The notes beneath the pieces are model-generated. The model was not told the DNA's origin and made no database searches. It saw nothing but the letters and a program-made list of their open reading frames with translations. This document shows, piece by piece, positions 12,332-50,684 of a DNA stretch of 64,000 bases (the stretch's first letter is position 1; every line of letters starts with the position of its first letter). A program made the translations under genes and the position numbers. The stretch covers positions 1 to 64,000 of the forward strand of contig CAMKMD010000006.1 in the NCBI GenBank assembly GCA_946413815.1. Direction: 5' to 3'. The DNA comes from an uncultured Ruminococcus sp. (GTDB lineage: Bacteria > Bacillota > Clostridia > Oscillospirales > Ruminococcaceae).

Positions 12332-13084
12332 TTATCTTTTAGCAGATCTTCTTGAACCTGACTGCGGGAAATATGTGTCTTTGTATTCCTTCGGCGTCAG
12401 TCCGGTATGTCTGCGGAACTGCTTGATGAAGTAGCTCTGTGAGCTGAAGCTGAGGTGATTGCTTATCTCAAGAGCAGTATAATCAGAGAAGCGAAGCATA
12501 TTCTCAGCTGCTTCTATTTTCTTCTCCATGATATATGAGCTGATGGCAACGCCTGTCTCTGCCTTGAACAGTCTCGATATATAAGGTACGCTGCAGCCTG
12601 CATGAGAAGCTATATCCTGAACAAGAAGCTTATCGTTCAGGTTATCGCTGATATAGTCAAGAATGACTGTCATTGTTCTCGGGTAGATGCGGCCTGTGCT
12701 GATCTGTCTCATCCTCTTGGTAAACTCGATAACGATCTCATAGTAAACTGAGTTGATCTCCTTCTCGTTGGTACAGAGCTCTGCACGCTGGAGATAGGCA
12801 TCACTGAGAGCCTGTGCCTCGTCCTTTGACATACCGCTTGAGGAGCAGTAACGTGTAAGAAGGGCGATAGTAACTACCAGATGATACTTCAGATCCTTGA
12901 GGTGATCTTCGCAGAGTTTGCCGAATCCATCCTCTCCGAGAGGGGCGAAGAGGGTTTTTACGGTCTCCAGATTACCGGAACATACACCTTTGCAGAATGC
13001 CAGTTCCCTTTCGATCGGAGCAAGATCTTCAGCAGTGTTGTTCACACCGGAACGGCAAGATCTTACTGTTGAATTATTTTTCAT
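12332..13084 (-). CDS. AraC-family transcriptional regulator
   Basis: This 250-aa DNA-binding regulator has a C-terminal AraC double helix-turn-helix (residues about 140-240). The first helix-turn-helix lies around VQDIASHAGCSVPYISRLF and the second ends in the family signature FSSQSYFIKQFRRHTGLTPKEYK. The N-terminal 130 residues look helical and do not resemble a cupin sensor, so the signal is unknown. The ATG at 13084 is preceded by AGGAGG and its own promoter at 13114-13142. It is divergent from the fusion regulator at 13259, so one may control the other or a shared target; this is inference. Confidence 0.9.
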   Translation of the reverse strand: MKNNSTVRSCRSGVNNTAEDLAPIERELAFCKGVCSGNLETVKTLFAPLGEDGFGKLCEDHLKDLKYHLVVTIALLTRYCSSSGMSKDEAQALSDAYLQRAELCTNEKEINSVYYEIVIEFTKRMRQISTGRIYPRTMTVILDYISDNLNDKLLVQDIASHAGCSVPYISRLFKAETGVAISSYIMEKKIEAAENMLRFSDYTALEISNHLSFSSQSYFIKQFRRHTGLTPKEYKDTYFPQSGSRRSAKR

Positions 13085-13213: not shown

Positions 13214-13258
13214 ATTAAATGTATGATAGTAAATACTTATCCCGTAGGAGGTGATACC

Positions 13259-15487
13259 GTGAAGAATCATATTGATATCGGCATCATAACTGCACAGGCA
13301 GCTGATTCTGAACAGCGTCAGATTTTATGCGGTATCATCGGAGAAGCTCAGAAGCTGGGAATGAATTCCATCGTTCTTTCCAACATCTACAATTCTTCTG
13401 AATATTTTGCCGATGTTGAAGTAGAGAACCGTATCTATGATCAGATACTTTCAAAGCAGCTCGACGGTATCATCCTTACGGCTGAATCCTTCCTCAATCA
13501 GGAGCTACAGGCGCGTATCAACGGTCTTCTTAAGCAGAGAAGCGATATCCCGGTCATTGTAACCGGAGCCGAGATAGAGGGATTTGAGTGCATAAACAAT
13601 GATGTCCGCGCCGATACAAAAGATATCATCGATCATCTTATCGAAGCACACAGCTTCTCCAGGATCGATTTTCTCACAGGTCCGGCTGAATATGATACCT
13701 CCATCCTCAGAGCCGAAGGATATAAGGATTCACTGTGCGCCCACGGTATACCATTCAGGGAGAACAGGGTAATTTACGGAGATTTCTGGATGAACTCAGG
13801 TGAGAAGCTTGCCGACGAATACATAAGCGGAAAACGACCGCTTCCGGAGGCTGTTGCCTGTGCAAATGACTACATGGCATACGGCCTTTGTGACAGGCTT
13901 ATGGAGAACGGTATCAGTATACCTGACAAGGTGACAGTTACCGGATATGAATATATCGGTTCAAGGTGCTATCATAACCCTATACTGACAACCTATCAGC
14001 GAAACAGAACTGCGCTAGGCGCCCGGGCTGCTTCCATTATCTACAGCAGGATCACGGGAAAACAGACTTCTCTTCCGGATATCAGCGGGCACATCGTGCT
14101 CGGCGACAGCTGTGCCTGCTGTGCAGATGATACTACTCTTTGTGCAGAGCTTTCGGCCATCCGAAGAGAGATGTTTTTCAGCCGGATGAACCTCACCGGA
14201 AACTTTGAGCAGCAGCTGACCATCTGCCGTTCTGTAAGCGATTATGTGGGTGTATTGCAGGAATTCGTCTATCTGATACGTGATATCAGGGGGCTGTATC
14301 TTTGCCTGCACGACAACTGGTGTAGCATGGAGCAGACTAAAGATCCCATGTCAGCAGAAACTGGTGACTCCATGATATGCTATACTATCATGCGTCCTGA
14401 CGGCAACTGTCCGAAGCCCGTCGTATTCCGCACTCTTGAAGAATTGCCGCCTGTTATCTGCCAGACAGACAAGGAGCTTGTATTGTATAACTGCCCTATA
14501 TTCTTTTCGGGCAAGTATTTCGGATATTTCATCCTGCAGTATGACCACGCGGACAGCTATGATATCATATTCCGGGACTGGCTGAAAACAGCTGCAAGCG
14601 CTCTTGAACTCCTGCGAATGAAGAATGACATCAACACGCTGCTTGAGTGCCGTGATCTTTCCGTTCAGCATGACTCAACTACGGGTATGCTTAACGAAAA
14701 GGGGCTTGAAAACGAGCTGCGCCTTATGCTGAGCAGAAATCCGGACGATCAGTCAATTGCGTTTGTTCTTATACGTACTGCAGCCTTTACAGATGACATC
14801 AATATAGATTCAAAAAGAGCAGGAATAGAACTCGACCGCAAGATCGCTTCTATCCTGACTTCACAATGCAGCATTTCCGATCTGTGCGGAAAGATCGCTG
14901 ACAAGACCTATGCTTTCATCAGGACTTCATTAAAAGGCGAAGATGACTTCAGGATGCTGCCCGACAGGATCTCCACTCTTATTGTATACTCGGAGCAGTA
15001 CCGTGAAAACTTCGGCCATGATTCTGTTATTATGTGCAGCCGGCAGTGCTGTACAAAGGACTTTGACTATAATACCATTCTCAGGGAACTGCTGGATGAA
15101 GCTGATGACAGGCTGTATACAAGCTCACTCCTTCACAGGAATCCCTATTACTCCGTATACTCCGGAGTGAGGGAGCTTATCTACAGCACCCCCTCCATAG
15201 ATCACAACTCGGCAGAAATATGCAGATCGCTGACTCATAGTGAGGGTTATTTCCGCTCTGTATATAAGGAGCTGTTTGGCATCAGCTTCCATCAGGACCT
15301 TATCAGGAGCCGAATCTCACTGGCTAAATACCTTATACTCACCTCTTCCATGAGCATAGAGATGATCGCGGAAAGCTGCGGTTATGTTGATACAAAACAT
15401 TTTTACCATCAGTTTCGGAAACTGACGGGAGTAAGTCCGAGAAAATACAAGCTCTCGGATCCTTCCGTAAACATAAAGGAGGGTTGA
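13259..15487 (+). CDS. Sensor/GGDEF-like/AraC fusion transcriptional regulator
   Basis: The start is GTG at 13259, because AGGAGGTG sits 5 nt upstream; the ATG at 13223 given by the ORF track has no such site. The protein is 742 aa. Residues about 1-290 resemble the LacI/PBP1-type sugar-sensing fold (IDIGIITAQ, ACANDYMAYGLCDRL, VTVTGYEYIG) but lack the N-terminal LacI helix-turn-helix. Residues about 300-480 are a linker or GAF-like region. Residues about 480-630 begin like a GGDEF domain (DSTTGMLNEKGLENEL), but the GGDEF signature is replaced by GKIADKTYAFI, so cyclase activity is unlikely. The C-terminal 100 residues are an AraC helix-turn-helix ending HFYHQFRKLTGVSPRKYK. It probably senses a small molecule and regulates nearby or distant transport or sugar genes. 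It may be cotranscribed with the GNAT gene 1 nt downstream. Confidence 0.85.
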   Translation: MKNHIDIGIITAQAADSEQRQILCGIIGEAQKLGMNSIVLSNIYNSSEYFADVEVENRIYDQILSKQLDGIILTAESFLNQELQARINGLLKQRSDIPVIVTGAEIEGFECINNDVRADTKDIIDHLIEAHSFSRIDFLTGPAEYDTSILRAEGYKDSLCAHGIPFRENRVIYGDFWMNSGEKLADEYISGKRPLPEAVACANDYMAYGLCDRLMENGISIPDKVTVTGYEYIGSRCYHNPILTTYQRNRTALGARAASIIYSRITGKQTSLPDISGHIVLGDSCACCADDTTLCAELSAIRREMFFSRMNLTGNFEQQLTICRSVSDYVGVLQEFVYLIRDIRGLYLCLHDNWCSMEQTKDPMSAETGDSMICYTIMRPDGNCPKPVVFRTLEELPPVICQTDKELVLYNCPIFFSGKYFGYFILQYDHADSYDIIFRDWLKTAASALELLRMKNDINTLLECRDLSVQHDSTTGMLNEKGLENELRLMLSRNPDDQSIAFVLIRTAAFTDDINIDSKRAGIELDRKIASILTSQCSISDLCGKIADKTYAFIRTSLKGEDDFRMLPDRISTLIVYSEQYRENFGHDSVIMCSRQCCTKDFDYNTILRELLDEADDRLYTSSLLHRNPYYSVYSGVRELIYSTPSIDHNSAEICRSLTHSEGYFRSVYKELFGISFHQDLIRSRISLAKYLILTSSMSIEMIAESCGYVDTKHFYHQFRKLTGVSPRKYKLSDPSVNIKEG

Positions 15488-15488
15488 T

Positions 15489-16031
15489 ATGGAACTCAGA
15501 CCTATAAAAAGAGGAACTATAGACGAAAAGAATGCTGAGGAGGTCAATATAGAAGCCTTCCCGGAAAACGAATATGTCCCTGTATCCGACCTGCTCAATT
15601 CAGTAGAGAATGGTGATATGGATATGCTGGCCATATATACGGAATACGGGTTTTCAGGCTTCCTGATGACCAGAAAGTGGACAGACTTCATATATCTGTG
15701 CTTTTTTGCAGTAAAGAAGGAACTCAGGAACAAGGGCATCGGTTCTGAAACGCTACGTAAGCTGAAGGAATACTATAACGGACTTGAGATCACCGTGGAC
15801 TACGAAGCGCCTGATGAGAGCTGCGACAACAACGAGCAGAGGATAAGTAGACGAGGTTTCTATAAGCGTTGCGGATTCCATGTGACCGGCTGGTACCAGT
15901 ACTACATGGACTGTGAGTTTGAGATTGCAAGCACTCAGGTGCCGTTCAACAAGGAATCATTTGAAGCGCTCAACGCCTTCATACATTCAAGGGTGCCTGA
16001 GTTTGACCCGCATCTATACCGTAAAGACTGA
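15489..16031 (+). CDS. GNAT-family N-acetyltransferase
   Basis: A 180-aa acetyltransferase-fold protein. The acetyl-CoA pyrophosphate-binding motif A is seen as FFAVKKELRNKGIGSETL (residues about 71-88), followed by the FYKRCGFHVTGWY motif typical of the C-terminal part of GNAT domains. The substrate cannot be told from sequence. The start at 15489 has an AGGAGGG site reaching back into the end of the upstream regulator, so the two genes are probably one unit, ending at the terminator at 16033-16067. Confidence 0.88.
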   Translation: MELRPIKRGTIDEKNAEEVNIEAFPENEYVPVSDLLNSVENGDMDMLAIYTEYGFSGFLMTRKWTDFIYLCFFAVKKELRNKGIGSETLRKLKEYYNGLEITVDYEAPDESCDNNEQRISRRGFYKRCGFHVTGWYQYYMDCEFEIASTQVPFNKESFEALNAFIHSRVPEFDPHLYRKD

Positions 16032-44882: not shown

Positions 44883-47800
44883 TTACTTCTGTTCTGAGAA
44901 ACTTACCTTTCCGTCTTCGCTGAATTCAATATATCCGCGGTTCTTTGCGGCCTTCATACCGAGTGATACGGCTTCGGTTATGGTGTCGGTAATGCGTGAG
45001 AAACCGAAGAGGCGAGCCGTCTCGCGGATCAGATCCTCGCGCTGCATAGCTACCTGCTCCTCCATGATAAGGCGGATTCCGTTTGCTATCTCCTCAGGCG
45101 CTATCTCGTCCATTGAACGCTTTGCGTCATCTGAAGCCTGCGCACGGCAGAGCGTATACTCATCAGGCACCTGTCCGGGCTTCCAGAGGAAGGCGTCTTC
45201 CCCTGCTGTTACTGCAACCGCACCGGATCTTGCTATAGCGGCATCAGCTGTCTTCTTCATGACTTCACCGGCTCTTGTTATGCCAAAACAGCTGAAGAGC
45301 TTCTTGCGGAGCACGTTCCTGCTTACCGGTGCTTCTGCTTCAAGGATATCATTTACGCATTTCACGATCTTAGTCTCGTTGTCCTCTGTGAATTTTTCAG
45401 AAGGACCGTATTCCTTGATCTTGAAGGGTGTGAACTTGTCACACTTGTCTGCAAGTGCGCTTACTTCCTCTGTTTCAAACACGAGCTCAGCAGACTTCTT
45501 AGGTTCCTCTTTGACTGTTTCTGCAGGGTTGCGGTAACGCTCAAGTGCTGCTGCGATCTCGTCCTCAATCTTCTTTATGGCCTTCTCCTTGTTGTCGAGC
45601 CAGTCAAGGATATATACCGTTGTGGTATTCCAGCCGAGGCCCTTTAGTACGCCGGCCTGTGCAATGTGACGTTCCTTGGACATACCCGTATTGTACCAGT
45701 TCTTTCCGCAGCAGTTGATAGCAAGCAGATAGGTCTCCGGCTTGTCAGGATTAGCAACGGCAACGTCGATCTTGTAGTCAGAGCAGCCGACTGAACAGTT
45801 TGCTGTATATCCACGCTTTCTCAGTTCCTCTGCTACTACCTGCTCAAAGCCTTTTCCCGCAGACGAGGAATTAGTACGTACATTTAGCGCACTTCTGCCC
45901 TTGGCTGCGAATTCAAGGAAGCCCTTCAGGCCTTCAACGCCGTCAGAGCGTGTGCGGCTGAGATCGATCATTTCCGGTGTAATTACAGAGAATACTATCA
46001 TCTCACACTTTGAACGTGAGATCGCTACGTTGAGACGTCTCCAGCCGCCGTCACGGTTGAGCGGACCGAAATTCATGGAGACCTTACCTTCCTTGTCGGG
46101 GCCGTAGCCAATAGAGAACATGATGACATCGCGTTCATCACCCTGTACATTTTCAAGGTTCTTGATTATGATGGGTTCGTACTGCTCGTTGGCCCACTGC
46201 TCAAGCTCCGGACGGGCACGATAAGCGTCCGTCAGGAGATCGTCCACAAGGTTCTGCTGCGGAAGGCTGAACGTAACTACACCGATACTCTGCTTCCTGA
46301 GTACAGGATCCTCAAGTCTTCTTGTGATCTCAGCCACGATAGCCTGAGCTTCGGCCTTGTTTGTGCGTGTGGAGCTCTTGTCATAGTAACCGTCAACGTG
46401 TACCCAGCTGACCTTGGATATCTGGTCATCGGGAGACGGGAAGGTATAGAGCTTATTATCGTAGTACTTTACGTTGCTGTAGGCGATAAGGCTCTCATGC
46501 TGTGAGCGGTAATGCCAGAGCAGATGCTGCTGCGGCATTGAAAGCGCAAGACAGTCATCAAGAACGCTCTCCAGGTCTTCCTTCTCGTAGTTCTCCTCAT
46601 CCACCTGACTTGTGCTGAAGAAGCTTGTAGGAGGAAGCTGCCTTGGGTCGCCGACAACTATGACATTCTCGCCTCTTGCAATGGCGCCCACTGCCTCACT
46701 TGTTGGAAGCTGTGAAGCCTCATCGAAGATTACGAGATCAAATTTCGGGTATGAAGGATCGATGTACTGAGCGACAGAGATGGGGCTCATGAGCATTACC
46801 GGGCACATCCTTCGCAGGAGGTTAGGAATGCTGTCAAACAGCTTTCTTATGGACATCATCCTGCCGTTGCTCTTTATAGCCTTCTGGAGTATGCCTATCT
46901 CGGAGCTTGCGGCGGAAGTGCCTGCTGCGGGCACCTTGGCTGAAAGCTCGGCAACGAGCTCATTGATGGTGAGCTTGGAGAAGTTTTCAAGAGCTTCATT
47001 GTATTTTCTTATAGTATCTTCAAACAGTACTCCCTGGAACTTGCTGAGAACGGGCTCGGAGCTGATAACTGAAGTCACTATCGCACGGCTGAGATCGCTG
47101 TCGAAGGCTTTTGTGAGCTCCGATGTGCTGACCTTGCCTGAAAGATAATTGTCTGCAATATTCCCTATACCGTAATCACGCAGTTTCTTACTGAGTGTTA
47201 CGATGCCCGCCCATTCCTTGAGCTGAGGAAGAGCGCCTATGATATCATCAGCCTTGCGGGCGGCTTCATTCTCCCAGTCACTGCCGGATGAGAGCATTGA
47301 TGTATCAATGGAGTAGTTCGTCTCCAGTTCTTTGAGTACGCTTTCAAGCTCGCCGAAGGATTCGTTAAGCTTGTCGGTCTCTGCCTTGCTTGCCTGCTTC
47401 TGTGAAGGTGTTCCGTATCTTTCACAGACTGCCCTGGACATCCTTGTCTTGTCATCACGGTCAAAAGCAGAGTTCAGTAGTCTGTTTCTTATACTTTCGG
47501 AGGAGGTCAGCGCCTTGTCAGCGATCTCCCAGTCGGTATCCTGAGACTGCCATATGGAGCCGAAGGCAGCAAGGACATCCGGTGAAACGGAATCGATGCT
47601 TTCTGAAAGCTCTCTGGCACGGATTATCTTTTCATACCATCCGGAGATGTTTTCTTTGTTGACAGTATCCCGGCTCTTGCTGTGTACAGCAAGCTCCTTC
47701 ACGAGCTTCTTGCTCTTTATAGCTTTGGGCAGGAACCATTTCTCCTGTACGGCCTTCCAGTTCTGCTGGGCGGCAGCTGCATCGTAGGAAAGGACTGATG

Positions 47801-50684
47801 ACTCGAATTTATCGAGAAGCTCTGTCTTCAGCGTACTGAGCTCCCTGCCGTTTTCTATAACCTTGAGCACAGCGGGCTGCCTGATATCCCAGTCAGTGCT
47901 GTCAACAATGCCGGGGAGTATATATCCTCCGGACATAGCTTCACTTATGATGCCGGATATCTCACGGCACTGATCAAGAGTCAGTTCGCTCCTGCCGGAA
48001 AATCCGCTCAGGAAGGCCTTCTGAGTACCGGCCTTTGAAAGGGCGCTCTTCAGTTCTGAGAGCTTTGCTTCAAGGTTCGGCCTTGTCTGCGGGGTGCAGT
48101 TATCAAGACGGCAGCAGGTCAGAGGAGTTGCTGTCACATCTCCGAATTCCCTGCCGGCTGCAGCAAGGCTCTCAAGTGCCTCGTGCCATTTTGTATAGGA
48201 ATCAGAGCTCATGGCGTTGAGCTGTGACTCTGTAAAGCTGAACTTTCCTCCGTATTGCTTGTTCTGTTCATACCTTACTGCCGCATCATACAGAGACATA
48301 CCGAAACTGCGTACTTTATGGATGGCCTCCATAGTGCCGTTGAGCTCCTGTCTGAGTTCGCTGATCCTGTCAGCCTGCGCCTTGTATTCGGCAGGCTGCT
48401 TGATCCTGCCTATATTGAGAGTATCCTCCAGCTGCTTGAGAACATAGCGCTTCTGTGCCTTGTTGGAATGGAGCTCAAGACAGAAGGGTGCAAGACCGAT
48501 CTTGTTGAGACGCTTTTCTACTACTTCAAGGGCTGCCATCTTCTCTGCCACGAAGAGTACGAATTTGCCGTGATGCAGGGCATTGGCTATCATATTGGTG
48601 ATGGTCTGGGATTTGCCTGTACCGGGAGGCCCATGGAGGACGAAGCTCTGTCCGGAGTTTGCCGCACATACAGCGGCAAGCTGTGATGAATCGGCTGCTA
48701 CAGGGACTGCAAGATCTGCAGGAGCGATCTTTGTATCAAGCTCGAGAGGAGGGATGTTCAGATCCTCAGCCTCCCATTCTGTCTTGCCAGACATGAGACT
48801 GGCAACGACCTTGTTTGCGGCAAGCTCATCCGCACGGTTGCGGATATCATTCCACATGATAAAGCGGTTGAAGGAGAACTGTCCTATAAAGGCGAACTCC
48901 TCTATCTCCCAGCGGGATTTCGCCATAACGCCCTTACGGATGGTACTGAATATCAGCGGGAGGTTTACTCCGTTCTCGTCCTCCGGTACGGGGGTAAGTC
49001 CTGAGATATCTATACCGTAGAACTGTCTGAGCATTTCAAGGAGAGTGATGTTGAACTGAGTGTCCTCATCGCGTACCTTGATGCTGTAGGAATTGTCCTG
49101 TACCTTGCGCGTGATATCAACAGGAATGAGCACAAGAGGAGCATAGCGCGCCTTCTCACTCTTTTCGGTCTCATACCAGCGCAGGAAACCAAGTGCAAGA
49201 TAGATGGTATTCGCACCGTTTTCCTCGATGCTGACTTTGGCCAGACGTGTGAGCTTCTTCATTGCCTTGTCAAGGTCGGATTCCTTCAGGAAGGTGCGCA
49301 GGCGCTGATTCTTCAACTCTGCATCGGCAATGGCAGAGATCTGTTCCTTCTGCTCTGTAGGTTCGTATATCTTGCTCTCTGAAGGCTCAAGTGCCAGATC
49401 GTTAGGTACAGCCATGACCTTGAATTCAAGGCCCTTCGAGACCTCGTCCTCAATTGATCCGAGACCGGATGTCATGAGCTGCACGCTGAGAGCGGTCGCA
49501 CGGAAATTCAGAAGGCTGTTCCGAAGACTGAGGTCAAGGAGCTTTCTCTCCCATATTACCTGCTTGGTGACTTCCTTAGCTTCCTCGGGACGGATATCGC
49601 CGATTATCTCAAGCTCACTCGGAGCGGAAGTTATATCATCTTTTTTGCGGGCACCGTAGTCAACTGCCTGATAGGAACCGTTTTCAAGGACACGGGCCGG
49701 CATAGGTCTGATACCGCTTGCGCGTGTACGGCTGATATCTATTGCAAAAACAAAGTTTTCAGGTTCATCGAAACAGGCGAGTGCATCTTTCTCGGCGTTG
49801 TCGAAATCGACGCTCTTTCCGGCTACAAAGTCTGTACACTCAACGGCGCAGAGGGCATTGACTCCTCTGGCCATTCGCTTTGTGACGGCAGACACGTCAT
49901 ATTGCAGGCAGTCCGGGAAGGTCTCCGCATCAAGCCAGCATCCCGCAAAGGCGTGTCCTTTGACAACAAAGAGTATAGGGTTCAGGCCTACAGCTTCAAG
50001 ACAGGAGCAGAACAGGACAGAGAGATCAAGACAGGTGCCTGCCCTGCCGTCGATGACTGCATCGGGAGTGCGGATGCGCTGTGCAGTCTCGTAGCTGGCA
50101 GTGGGGGTTGTATAGGCTATATTCATTTCCTGGAGAGCCGCATATATGGCCGCTGCCTGATTGCGTACTATATTTGCGTTTCTGGTCTGATATCCTGTAA
50201 AGGCGGGATCTCCGCTCCACTTCTGCAGATACAGGCTTGCTCCGGAAACAACTTCCTGTACCTTCGGGTGATTCGGCATAACGAAAGCTGCTGCCATCTC
50301 CGGCATATTCTGTGAGCCTGTCCACTGGTCATAGGCAAGCAGTTCGACAGTACGCACCTCGGACGCTATCACCTCATCGCCCTGCAGTGCTTCAAGTGTT
50401 ACGCTGCCGATCATTTTTTCTGTAAGGCTGAAAAGATAATCGGACTTCATCACTATCTGGACAGGTGATACCGTCACTGACTGACCCGCTTCAATATCTA
50501 ACGGAACGGATTCAAAGAGATTTGCAAACTCCGGCTCAAACTTTATACGCAGCTTTACGCTCCGGAGATCCTCAGCGGAATTGTTCTTCATAACTACATT
50601 GCGGAATACCGGAACATAGTTCTGCTGAAGCGAAAAATTGATCTGGGCAGTCATTACCCCGTCAAAGGTTATCATGTTATCCAT
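44883..50684 (-). CDS. Transglutaminase-like/DUF4011 SF1 helicase/nuclease fusion
   Basis: A 1933-aa multidomain protein. Residues 1-115 are a beta-rich domain. Residues about 140-330 are a transglutaminase-like fold with GRAGTCLDLSVLF (Cys 218) and VKGHAFAGCW (His 244), so the cysteine protease-type dyad is intact. Residues about 375-640 match the DUF4011 region that precedes SF1 helicases. The helicase core follows, with Walker A HGPPGTGKSQTI (about 684) and Walker B FDLVIFDEASQLP, VVGDPRQLPPTS and QGDERDVIMFSIGYG. A Vsr/restriction-endonuclease-like domain follows (FEQVVAEELRKRGY, SVGCSDYKIDVAV), then a DUF3320-like C-terminus. Helicase-nuclease proteins of the DUF4011 type are linked to anti-phage defence. 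The murT-gatD-lysozyme genes follow. Function in this host is unproven. Confidence 0.85.
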   Translation of the reverse strand: MDNMITFDGVMTAQINFSLQQNYVPVFRNVVMKNNSAEDLRSVKLRIKFEPEFANLFESVPLDIEAGQSVTVSPVQIVMKSDYLFSLTEKMIGSVTLEALQGDEVIASEVRTVELLAYDQWTGSQNMPEMAAAFVMPNHPKVQEVVSGASLYLQKWSGDPAFTGYQTRNANIVRNQAAAIYAALQEMNIAYTTPTASYETAQRIRTPDAVIDGRAGTCLDLSVLFCSCLEAVGLNPILFVVKGHAFAGCWLDAETFPDCLQYDVSAVTKRMARGVNALCAVECTDFVAGKSVDFDNAEKDALACFDEPENFVFAIDISRTRASGIRPMPARVLENGSYQAVDYGARKKDDITSAPSELEIIGDIRPEEAKEVTKQVIWERKLLDLSLRNSLLNFRATALSVQLMTSGLGSIEDEVSKGLEFKVMAVPNDLALEPSESKIYEPTEQKEQISAIADAELKNQRLRTFLKESDLDKAMKKLTRLAKVSIEENGANTIYLALGFLRWYETEKSEKARYAPLVLIPVDITRKVQDNSYSIKVRDEDTQFNITLLEMLRQFYGIDISGLTPVPEDENGVNLPLIFSTIRKGVMAKSRWEIEEFAFIGQFSFNRFIMWNDIRNRADELAANKVVASLMSGKTEWEAEDLNIPPLELDTKIAPADLAVPVAADSSQLAAVCAANSGQSFVLHGPPGTGKSQTITNMIANALHHGKFVLFVAEKMAALEVVEKRLNKIGLAPFCLELHSNKAQKRYVLKQLEDTLNIGRIKQPAEYKAQADRISELRQELNGTMEAIHKVRSFGMSLYDAAVRYEQNKQYGGKFSFTESQLNAMSSDSYTKWHEALESLAAAGREFGDVTATPLTCCRLDNCTPQTRPNLEAKLSELKSALSKAGTQKAFLSGFSGRSELTLDQCREISGIISEAMSGGYILPGIVDSTDWDIRQPAVLKVIENGRELSTLKTELLDKFESSVLSYDAAAAQQNWKAVQEKWFLPKAIKSKKLVKELAVHSKSRDTVNKENISGWYEKIIRARELSESIDSVSPDVLAAFGSIWQSQDTDWEIADKALTSSESIRNRLLNSAFDRDDKTRMSRAVCERYGTPSQKQASKAETDKLNESFGELESVLKELETNYSIDTSMLSSGSDWENEAARKADDIIGALPQLKEWAGIVTLSKKLRDYGIGNIADNYLSGKVSTSELTKAFDSDLSRAIVTSVISSEPVLSKFQGVLFEDTIRKYNEALENFSKLTINELVAELSAKVPAAGTSAASSEIGILQKAIKSNGRMMSIRKLFDSIPNLLRRMCPVMLMSPISVAQYIDPSYPKFDLVIFDEASQLPTSEAVGAIARGENVIVVGDPRQLPPTSFFSTSQVDEENYEKEDLESVLDDCLALSMPQQHLLWHYRSQHESLIAYSNVKYYDNKLYTFPSPDDQISKVSWVHVDGYYDKSSTRTNKAEAQAIVAEITRRLEDPVLRKQSIGVVTFSLPQQNLVDDLLTDAYRARPELEQWANEQYEPIIIKNLENVQGDERDVIMFSIGYGPDKEGKVSMNFGPLNRDGGWRRLNVAISRSKCEMIVFSVITPEMIDLSRTRSDGVEGLKGFLEFAAKGRSALNVRTNSSSAGKGFEQVVAEELRKRGYTANCSVGCSDYKIDVAVANPDKPETYLLAINCCGKNWYNTGMSKERHIAQAGVLKGLGWNTTTVYILDWLDNKEKAIKKIEDEIAAALERYRNPAETVKEEPKKSAELVFETEEVSALADKCDKFTPFKIKEYGPSEKFTEDNETKIVKCVNDILEAEAPVSRNVLRKKLFSCFGITRAGEVMKKTADAAIARSGAVAVTAGEDAFLWKPGQVPDEYTLCRAQASDDAKRSMDEIAPEEIANGIRLIMEEQVAMQREDLIRETARLFGFSRITDTITEAVSLGMKAAKNRGYIEFSEDGKVSFSEQK

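Follow-up and report, generated by a model that had tools for sequence, protein, structure and literature searches.

A regulator of an uncultured Ruminococcus sp. joining a LacI-like sensor, a GAF-like domain, a degenerate GGDEF domain and an AraC domain

The gene and its domains

The window, i.e., the whole stretch of 64,000 nucleotides that was analyzed, harbors an open frame on the forward strand (13223-15487) which, read from the upstream in-frame ATG at 13223, encodes 754 amino acids. A GTG at 13259 appears to be the better start, since the sequence AGGAGGTG (13247-13254) is located just 5' of it; the initial annotation had placed the start at the same position, and the likely ribosome-binding site TAGGAGGTG, ending at 13254, a few bases 5' of the GTG, agrees with that choice. 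Residue numbers in the text refer to the 754-residue frame, and 12 has to be subtracted to obtain those of the GTG start. The features of the gene are the following (with their basis in brackets):

13246..13254, +, TAGGAGGTG, likely ribosome-binding site of the GTG at 13259 (sequence)
13259..15487, +, LacI-GAF-degenerate GGDEF-AraC one-component regulator, GTG start, 742 amino acids (frame, Pfam, upstream sequence)
13277..14113, +, LacI/periplasmic-binding-protein-like sugar-sensor domain, residues 19-297, without the N-terminal LacI HTH (Pfam, PDB relatives)
14114..14629, +, GAF-like domain with long flanking helix, about residues 298-469 (AlphaFold, Foldseek, weak Pfam GAF_2)
14630..14666, +, connecting signaling helix into the DxxTG motif, about residues 470-481 (helices ending the linker model and starting the GGDEF-like model)
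14667..15139, +, degenerate GGDEF domain, residues 482-639, with DSTTGMLN retained and the catalytic and GTP-binding residues gone (Pfam, profile, AlphaFold, Foldseek, alignment)
14888..14920, +, GKIADKTYAFI, residues 556-566, with ADKTY in the place of GGDEF (alignment)
15221..15451, +, AraC DNA-binding domain, HTH_18, residues 667-743 (Pfam)

The two ends of the protein were readily assigned. When the whole protein was scanned, Pfam placed Peripla_BP_1 at residues 19-282 (67.7 bits, cut-off 22.2) and Peripla_BP_3 at residues 136-297 (64.7 bits), and the best PDB relatives of this part by sequence are LacI-family sensor domains; the same scan disclosed no LacI HTH in the regulator, the sensor fold beginning at residue 19. 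At the C-terminus, HTH_18 is located at residues 667-743 (57.4 bits, cut-off 33.6), with the double HTH of the AraC/XylS family, and the best PDB relatives by sequence are AraC domains. Both the sugar-binding fold lacking the LacI DNA-binding helix and the AraC domain at the other end, as they had been recognized from the letters of the sequence, are therefore borne out.

The about 170 residues separating the sugar-binding fold from the GGDEF-like domain, for which the initial annotation had given no domain, model as GAF-like. The AlphaFold model of residues 291-486 (pLDDT 72.7) consists of a helix, a sheet and a long final helix, and nearly all the 50 Foldseek matches listed for it are of the GAF/phytochrome type (PDE6, Lcd1, KdpD), even though they are weak (best E 1.5e-3). 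Pfam GAF_2 is also weak and present in two of 43 relatives; a profile of the linker retrieved no PDB homologue by sequence, and it is the model alone that suggests GAF. Residues from about 300 to 470 may therefore be described as a GAF-like domain, on a model of medium confidence and weak Foldseek E-values, and the order of the domains is LacI sensor, GAF-like, GGDEF-like and AraC.

As for the middle domain, the Pfam GGDEF family matches residues 482-639 with 20.3 bits (E 5e-4) in the scan of the whole protein, under the cut-off of 23.8, and with 24.9 bits, over the cut-off, when the stretch is scanned alone; the same family is matched by 47 of 54 diverse AraC-linked relatives, each scanned singly. 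A profile built on the 54 degenerate copies only retrieved 57 PDB sequences at E < 0.1, nearly all of GGDEF proteins (best E 4.6e-11), the structures of FimX being among them. The AlphaFold model of residues 468-646 has a mean pLDDT of 83.7, and all the 50 Foldseek matches listed for it are GGDEF domains (E from 5e-8 to 2e-5, query-normalized TM up to 0.72). GGDEF_2 gave no Pfam match in the regulator or in the GGDEF-like stretch at E up to 1. Both profile and model indicate that the middle domain has a GGDEF fold, so that the GGDEF-like domain foreseen by the initial annotation is upheld and the fold prediction returned GGDEF rather than an unrelated fold.

Relatives of the regulator and the loss of the active site

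A total of 131 relatives were fetched and aligned. An AraC domain is present in 87 of them (81 with the GGDEF-like region), 34 end with a GGDEF domain, nine bear an EAL domain, and one (L070) is a broken copy of the AraC clade, with an in-frame TGA within the AraC part and a frame of 657 amino acids, which may reflect decay of the gene or an error in the sequence. The EAL versions L121-L129 are LacI-GAF sensors of about 1115 amino acids whose EAL phosphodiesterase output lies at residues ~510-735; in L122, about 380 residues beyond the EAL domain have no Pfam match.

Relatives are present in all the 35 sampled genomes of the genus and in none of the 24 genomes sampled from the order's other families. 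Among 391 sampled genomes of the class, one further full-length AraC version was found, which belongs to a different genus of the same family (G433, 36%); in the rest of this sample the same N-terminus bears GGDEF, EAL or GGDEF-EAL. In three sequences from other families of the class (L170, L172 and L176), LacI-GAF is followed by EAL, and an intact GGDEF motif is absent from the protein; L170 has, ahead of EAL, a GGDEF domain devoid of the motif, which represents another route to the loss of the motif. The LacI-GAF N-terminus joined to an intact GGDEF domain, without AraC, occurs in the genome of the regulator itself and in the genus, where this N-terminus may also bear EAL. The genome of the regulator harbors six LacI-GAF-GGDEF paralogues sharing the same domain order. 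It has about 20 well-scoring GGDEF domains, because of which c-di-GMP is probably made.

The comparison between the two main groups of copies revealed what the degenerate domain has lost. In the GGDEF-ending copies, the metal Asp, the Asp at the third position (DxDxLKxIND), the Lys and the guanine Asn and Asp are each found in 34 of 34 sequences, and so are the D and E of the GGDEF loop, one copy reading GRDEF. The motif is thus kept in 33 of the 34 GGDEF-ending copies versus none of the 81 AraC-linked ones, where each catalytic or guanine position is scattered over many residues and the loop takes dozens of differing five-letter forms. In the regulator under study, the first Asp is replaced by Arg, the third-position Asp by Ala, the Lys by Thr, and the guanine Asn and Asp both by Ile; ADKTY aligns with GGDEF, so that the loss of the signature at GKIADKTYAFI, already noticed in the bare sequence, is confirmed. 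None of the features of an active diguanylate cyclase (GG(D/E)EF loop, metal Asp, guanine Asn/Asp) was found in the regulator.

The DxxTG turn at the beginning of the domain is retained in most AraC-linked copies (Asp 75/81, Thr 73/81, Gly 75/81, and the later Gly 77/81). In the diguanylate cyclases that have been studied, the DxLT turn is the junction of the input coiled coil with the GGDEF domain (PMC8041772). The retention of DxxTG, the scattering of the active site and the role of this turn point, therefore, to a degenerate GGDEF domain that keeps its input junction and has lost its chemistry. Moreover, the dN/dS of the domain ranges from 0.02 to 0.20 in all the 11 AraC-type pairs measurable for synonymous change and is broadly like that of the sensor domain; for the AraC domain, the values among relatives do not exceed those of the other domains in most pairs. 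Such purifying selection speaks for a retained function of the degenerate domain. In seven copies, the identity to the query is 22-31% for the GGDEF-like domain versus 30-54% for the linker. The domain is not indispensable to the design: six AraC copies (L020 and L130-L134), organized as LacI-GAF-AraC in 564-609 amino acids, lack it altogether and represent a natural deletion experiment.

Four changes of the AraC label are required on the tree of sensor and linker; when all the AraC copies were forced into one clade, the resulting topology was not rejected (p-AU 0.47). Independent, repeated losses of GGDEF are for this reason not claimed, and the absence of the motif from all the 81 copies may be the outcome of one loss inherited many times.

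Genomic neighborhood and candidate targets

A divergent AraC regulator of 250 amino acids is located upstream (window 12332-13084, -), 174 bp from the GTG, and a GNAT acetyltransferase gene (15489-16031, +) begins one base past the stop of the regulator, with which it is probably co-transcribed; this pairing was not found in the relatives. The neighbors in the window, the divergent AraC gene included, are not conserved beside relatives; the Rnf operon, GNAT, FeoB and thiamine genes were looked for at 22 loci of relatives and not found, with the only exception of a FeoB relative near one orthologue, and thus say little on function. In two orthologous loci, L032 and L034, the divergent AraC regulator has a homologue (43-45% identity) at a distance of about 4 kb from the orthologue; the two are separated by a GH9-dockerin-GH16 gene in L032 and by a relative of this gene in L034, with a flanking GH5-like gene in both. 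This arrangement hints at a link between the two regulators. The promoter region shared with the divergent AraC gene (12332-13084) is the first candidate target, and no direct repeats fit for an AraC site were found in this divergent promoter.

Many relatives adjoin genes for secreted polysaccharide-degrading enzymes, most of which carry dockerins; the enzymes include GH10, GH30-esterase, GH44, GH9-GH16, GH5, GH26-CBM35, GH95 and rhamnogalacturonan lyases. Dockerins are common, with about 110-150 or more matches per genome. In four genomes, counted by hand against a simple Poisson null in which the dockerins of the regulator's own genome were at least about 150, a dockerin is found within 5 kb of 15 of 22 AraC copies (8.0 expected, approximate p 0.002) and of 12 of 24 GGDEF copies (8.8 expected, approximate p 0.12), without a significant difference between the two (Fisher p 0.24). 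The proximity is only moderately above background. In the regulator's own window, there is no dockerin gene among the matches listed. The targets of the related copies are probably genes for polysaccharide-degrading, often dockerin-bearing, enzymes, the pattern being suggestive only.

The same window also contains (44883-50684, -) a gene for a 1933-residue DUF4011-helicase-MTES_1575 nuclease-DUF3320 protein, which scores 1251 bits against the PADLOC candidate defence family PDC-S37 and 525 bits against Hhe.

Proposed function and comparison with known systems

It is likely that the gene encodes a transcription factor of the one-component type, cytoplasmic and responsive to sugar, which derives from a sugar-sensing diguanylate cyclase and whose dead GGDEF domain acts as a relay or dimerizer. 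The proposal is based on the domain order, the GGDEF fold, the loss of the active site with the input motif kept, the purifying selection and the kinship with proteins whose motif is intact. The LacI-like fold would bind a small carbohydrate; its opening or closing would be passed, through the GAF-like domain and the signaling helix, into the degenerate GGDEF domain, which would neither synthesize c-di-GMP nor bind GTP any more and might serve as a dimerizing relay and as a spacer placing two AraC domains on DNA.

The initial annotation had left two roles for the GGDEF-like domain, nucleotide binding or dimerization only. The latter, extended to a relay, is now favored, and the former is unlikely because the replacements affect both metal Asp residues, the guanine Asn and Asp, and the whole GGDEF loop. 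An allosteric nucleotide sensor, binding GTP, c-di-GMP or another nucleotide and integrating it with the sugar signal at the promoter, would fit with the purifying selection on the domain, with the c-di-GMP probably made by a genome so rich in GGDEF domains, and with FimX, a signaling protein whose degenerate GGDEF domain responds to GTP through a variant motif that it needs (PMC8846402). FimX has an EAL output. In the regulator and its AraC-type kin, however, every recognized GTP-contact position is replaced and varies freely, and no RxxD inhibitory site was seen by eye ahead of ADKTY, which makes a nucleotide sensor quite improbable.

A vestigial domain, left behind by the fusion and limited to a spacing role, is somewhat less improbable, but still unlikely: although six AraC-type relatives do without the domain, and it diverges more than the linker, its low dN/dS, a fold that still models confidently and a DxxTG motif conserved at about 90% or more are hardly those of a remnant. 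The coexistence in the same genome of intact-GGDEF paralogues with the same N-terminal domains might also suggest that the regulator mainly modulates an active LacI-GAF-GGDEF cyclase, forming heterodimers through the GGDEF-like domain; the well-scoring AraC DNA-binding domain, constrained at least as strongly as the other domains in most pairs, renders this highly improbable. A sugar-responsive transcription factor with a non-catalytic relay is the reading retained here.

The overall plan recalls that of XylR of Escherichia coli (PDB 4fe4/4fe7), which has an N-terminal LacI-like sugar-binding domain without the LacI HTH and a C-terminal AraC domain, the AraC part of the regulator matching that of XylR; the XylR chain, however, has 392 amino acids, whereas the regulator has 742-754, the about 350 additional residues being the GAF-like and degenerate GGDEF domains. 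With the LacI/periplasmic-binding sensor diguanylate cyclases of Clostridia, the regulator shares the LacI-GAF-GGDEF order and homologous sequence, but those cyclases keep GGDEF or GGDEY and end there, whereas in the regulator the active-site residues are gone and an AraC domain is present. A GGDEF-like domain within a transcription factor is also found in PucR-type regulators (Pfam GGDEF_2), where no specific function has been reported for it (PMC7652997); their HTH and sensor families are different, and the domain of the regulator matches classical GGDEF rather than GGDEF_2. The AraC family regulators tied to c-di-GMP, CuxR and VfmE (PMC9045272), differ in binding it via an RxxxR motif and not through a GGDEF domain. 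In the literature searched, no description of LacI-GGDEF-AraC proteins was found; what is undescribed there is the combination of LacI, GAF, degenerate GGDEF and AraC in kin of coexisting intact-motif cyclases, the XylR plan and the GGDEF-like domain of PucR being already known.

The expression of the cellulosome of R. flavefaciens depends on the substrate (PMC3672088), and no paper naming the regulators of this response was found in the literature searched; the present proteins represent a candidate regulator family for fiber-degrading genes in Ruminococcus. A broader scenario can be put forward tentatively, and with some doubt, according to which a genus-wide sensor family would have given up signaling by a second messenger and come to control genes directly: an AraC domain would have been added to a sugar-sensing diguanylate cyclase, the catalytic domain would have become a relay coupled by a coiled coil, and the resulting proteins would have multiplied, reaching up to about ten copies per genome, as dedicated regulators acting locally on cellulosomal enzyme genes in Ruminococcus. 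In this family, the conversion of an enzyme domain into a non-catalytic relay can be traced, as intact and dead versions bearing the same sensor occur in one genome; their comparison shows directly that the DxxTG input turn must be kept by the dead domain, whereas the active site may be lost.
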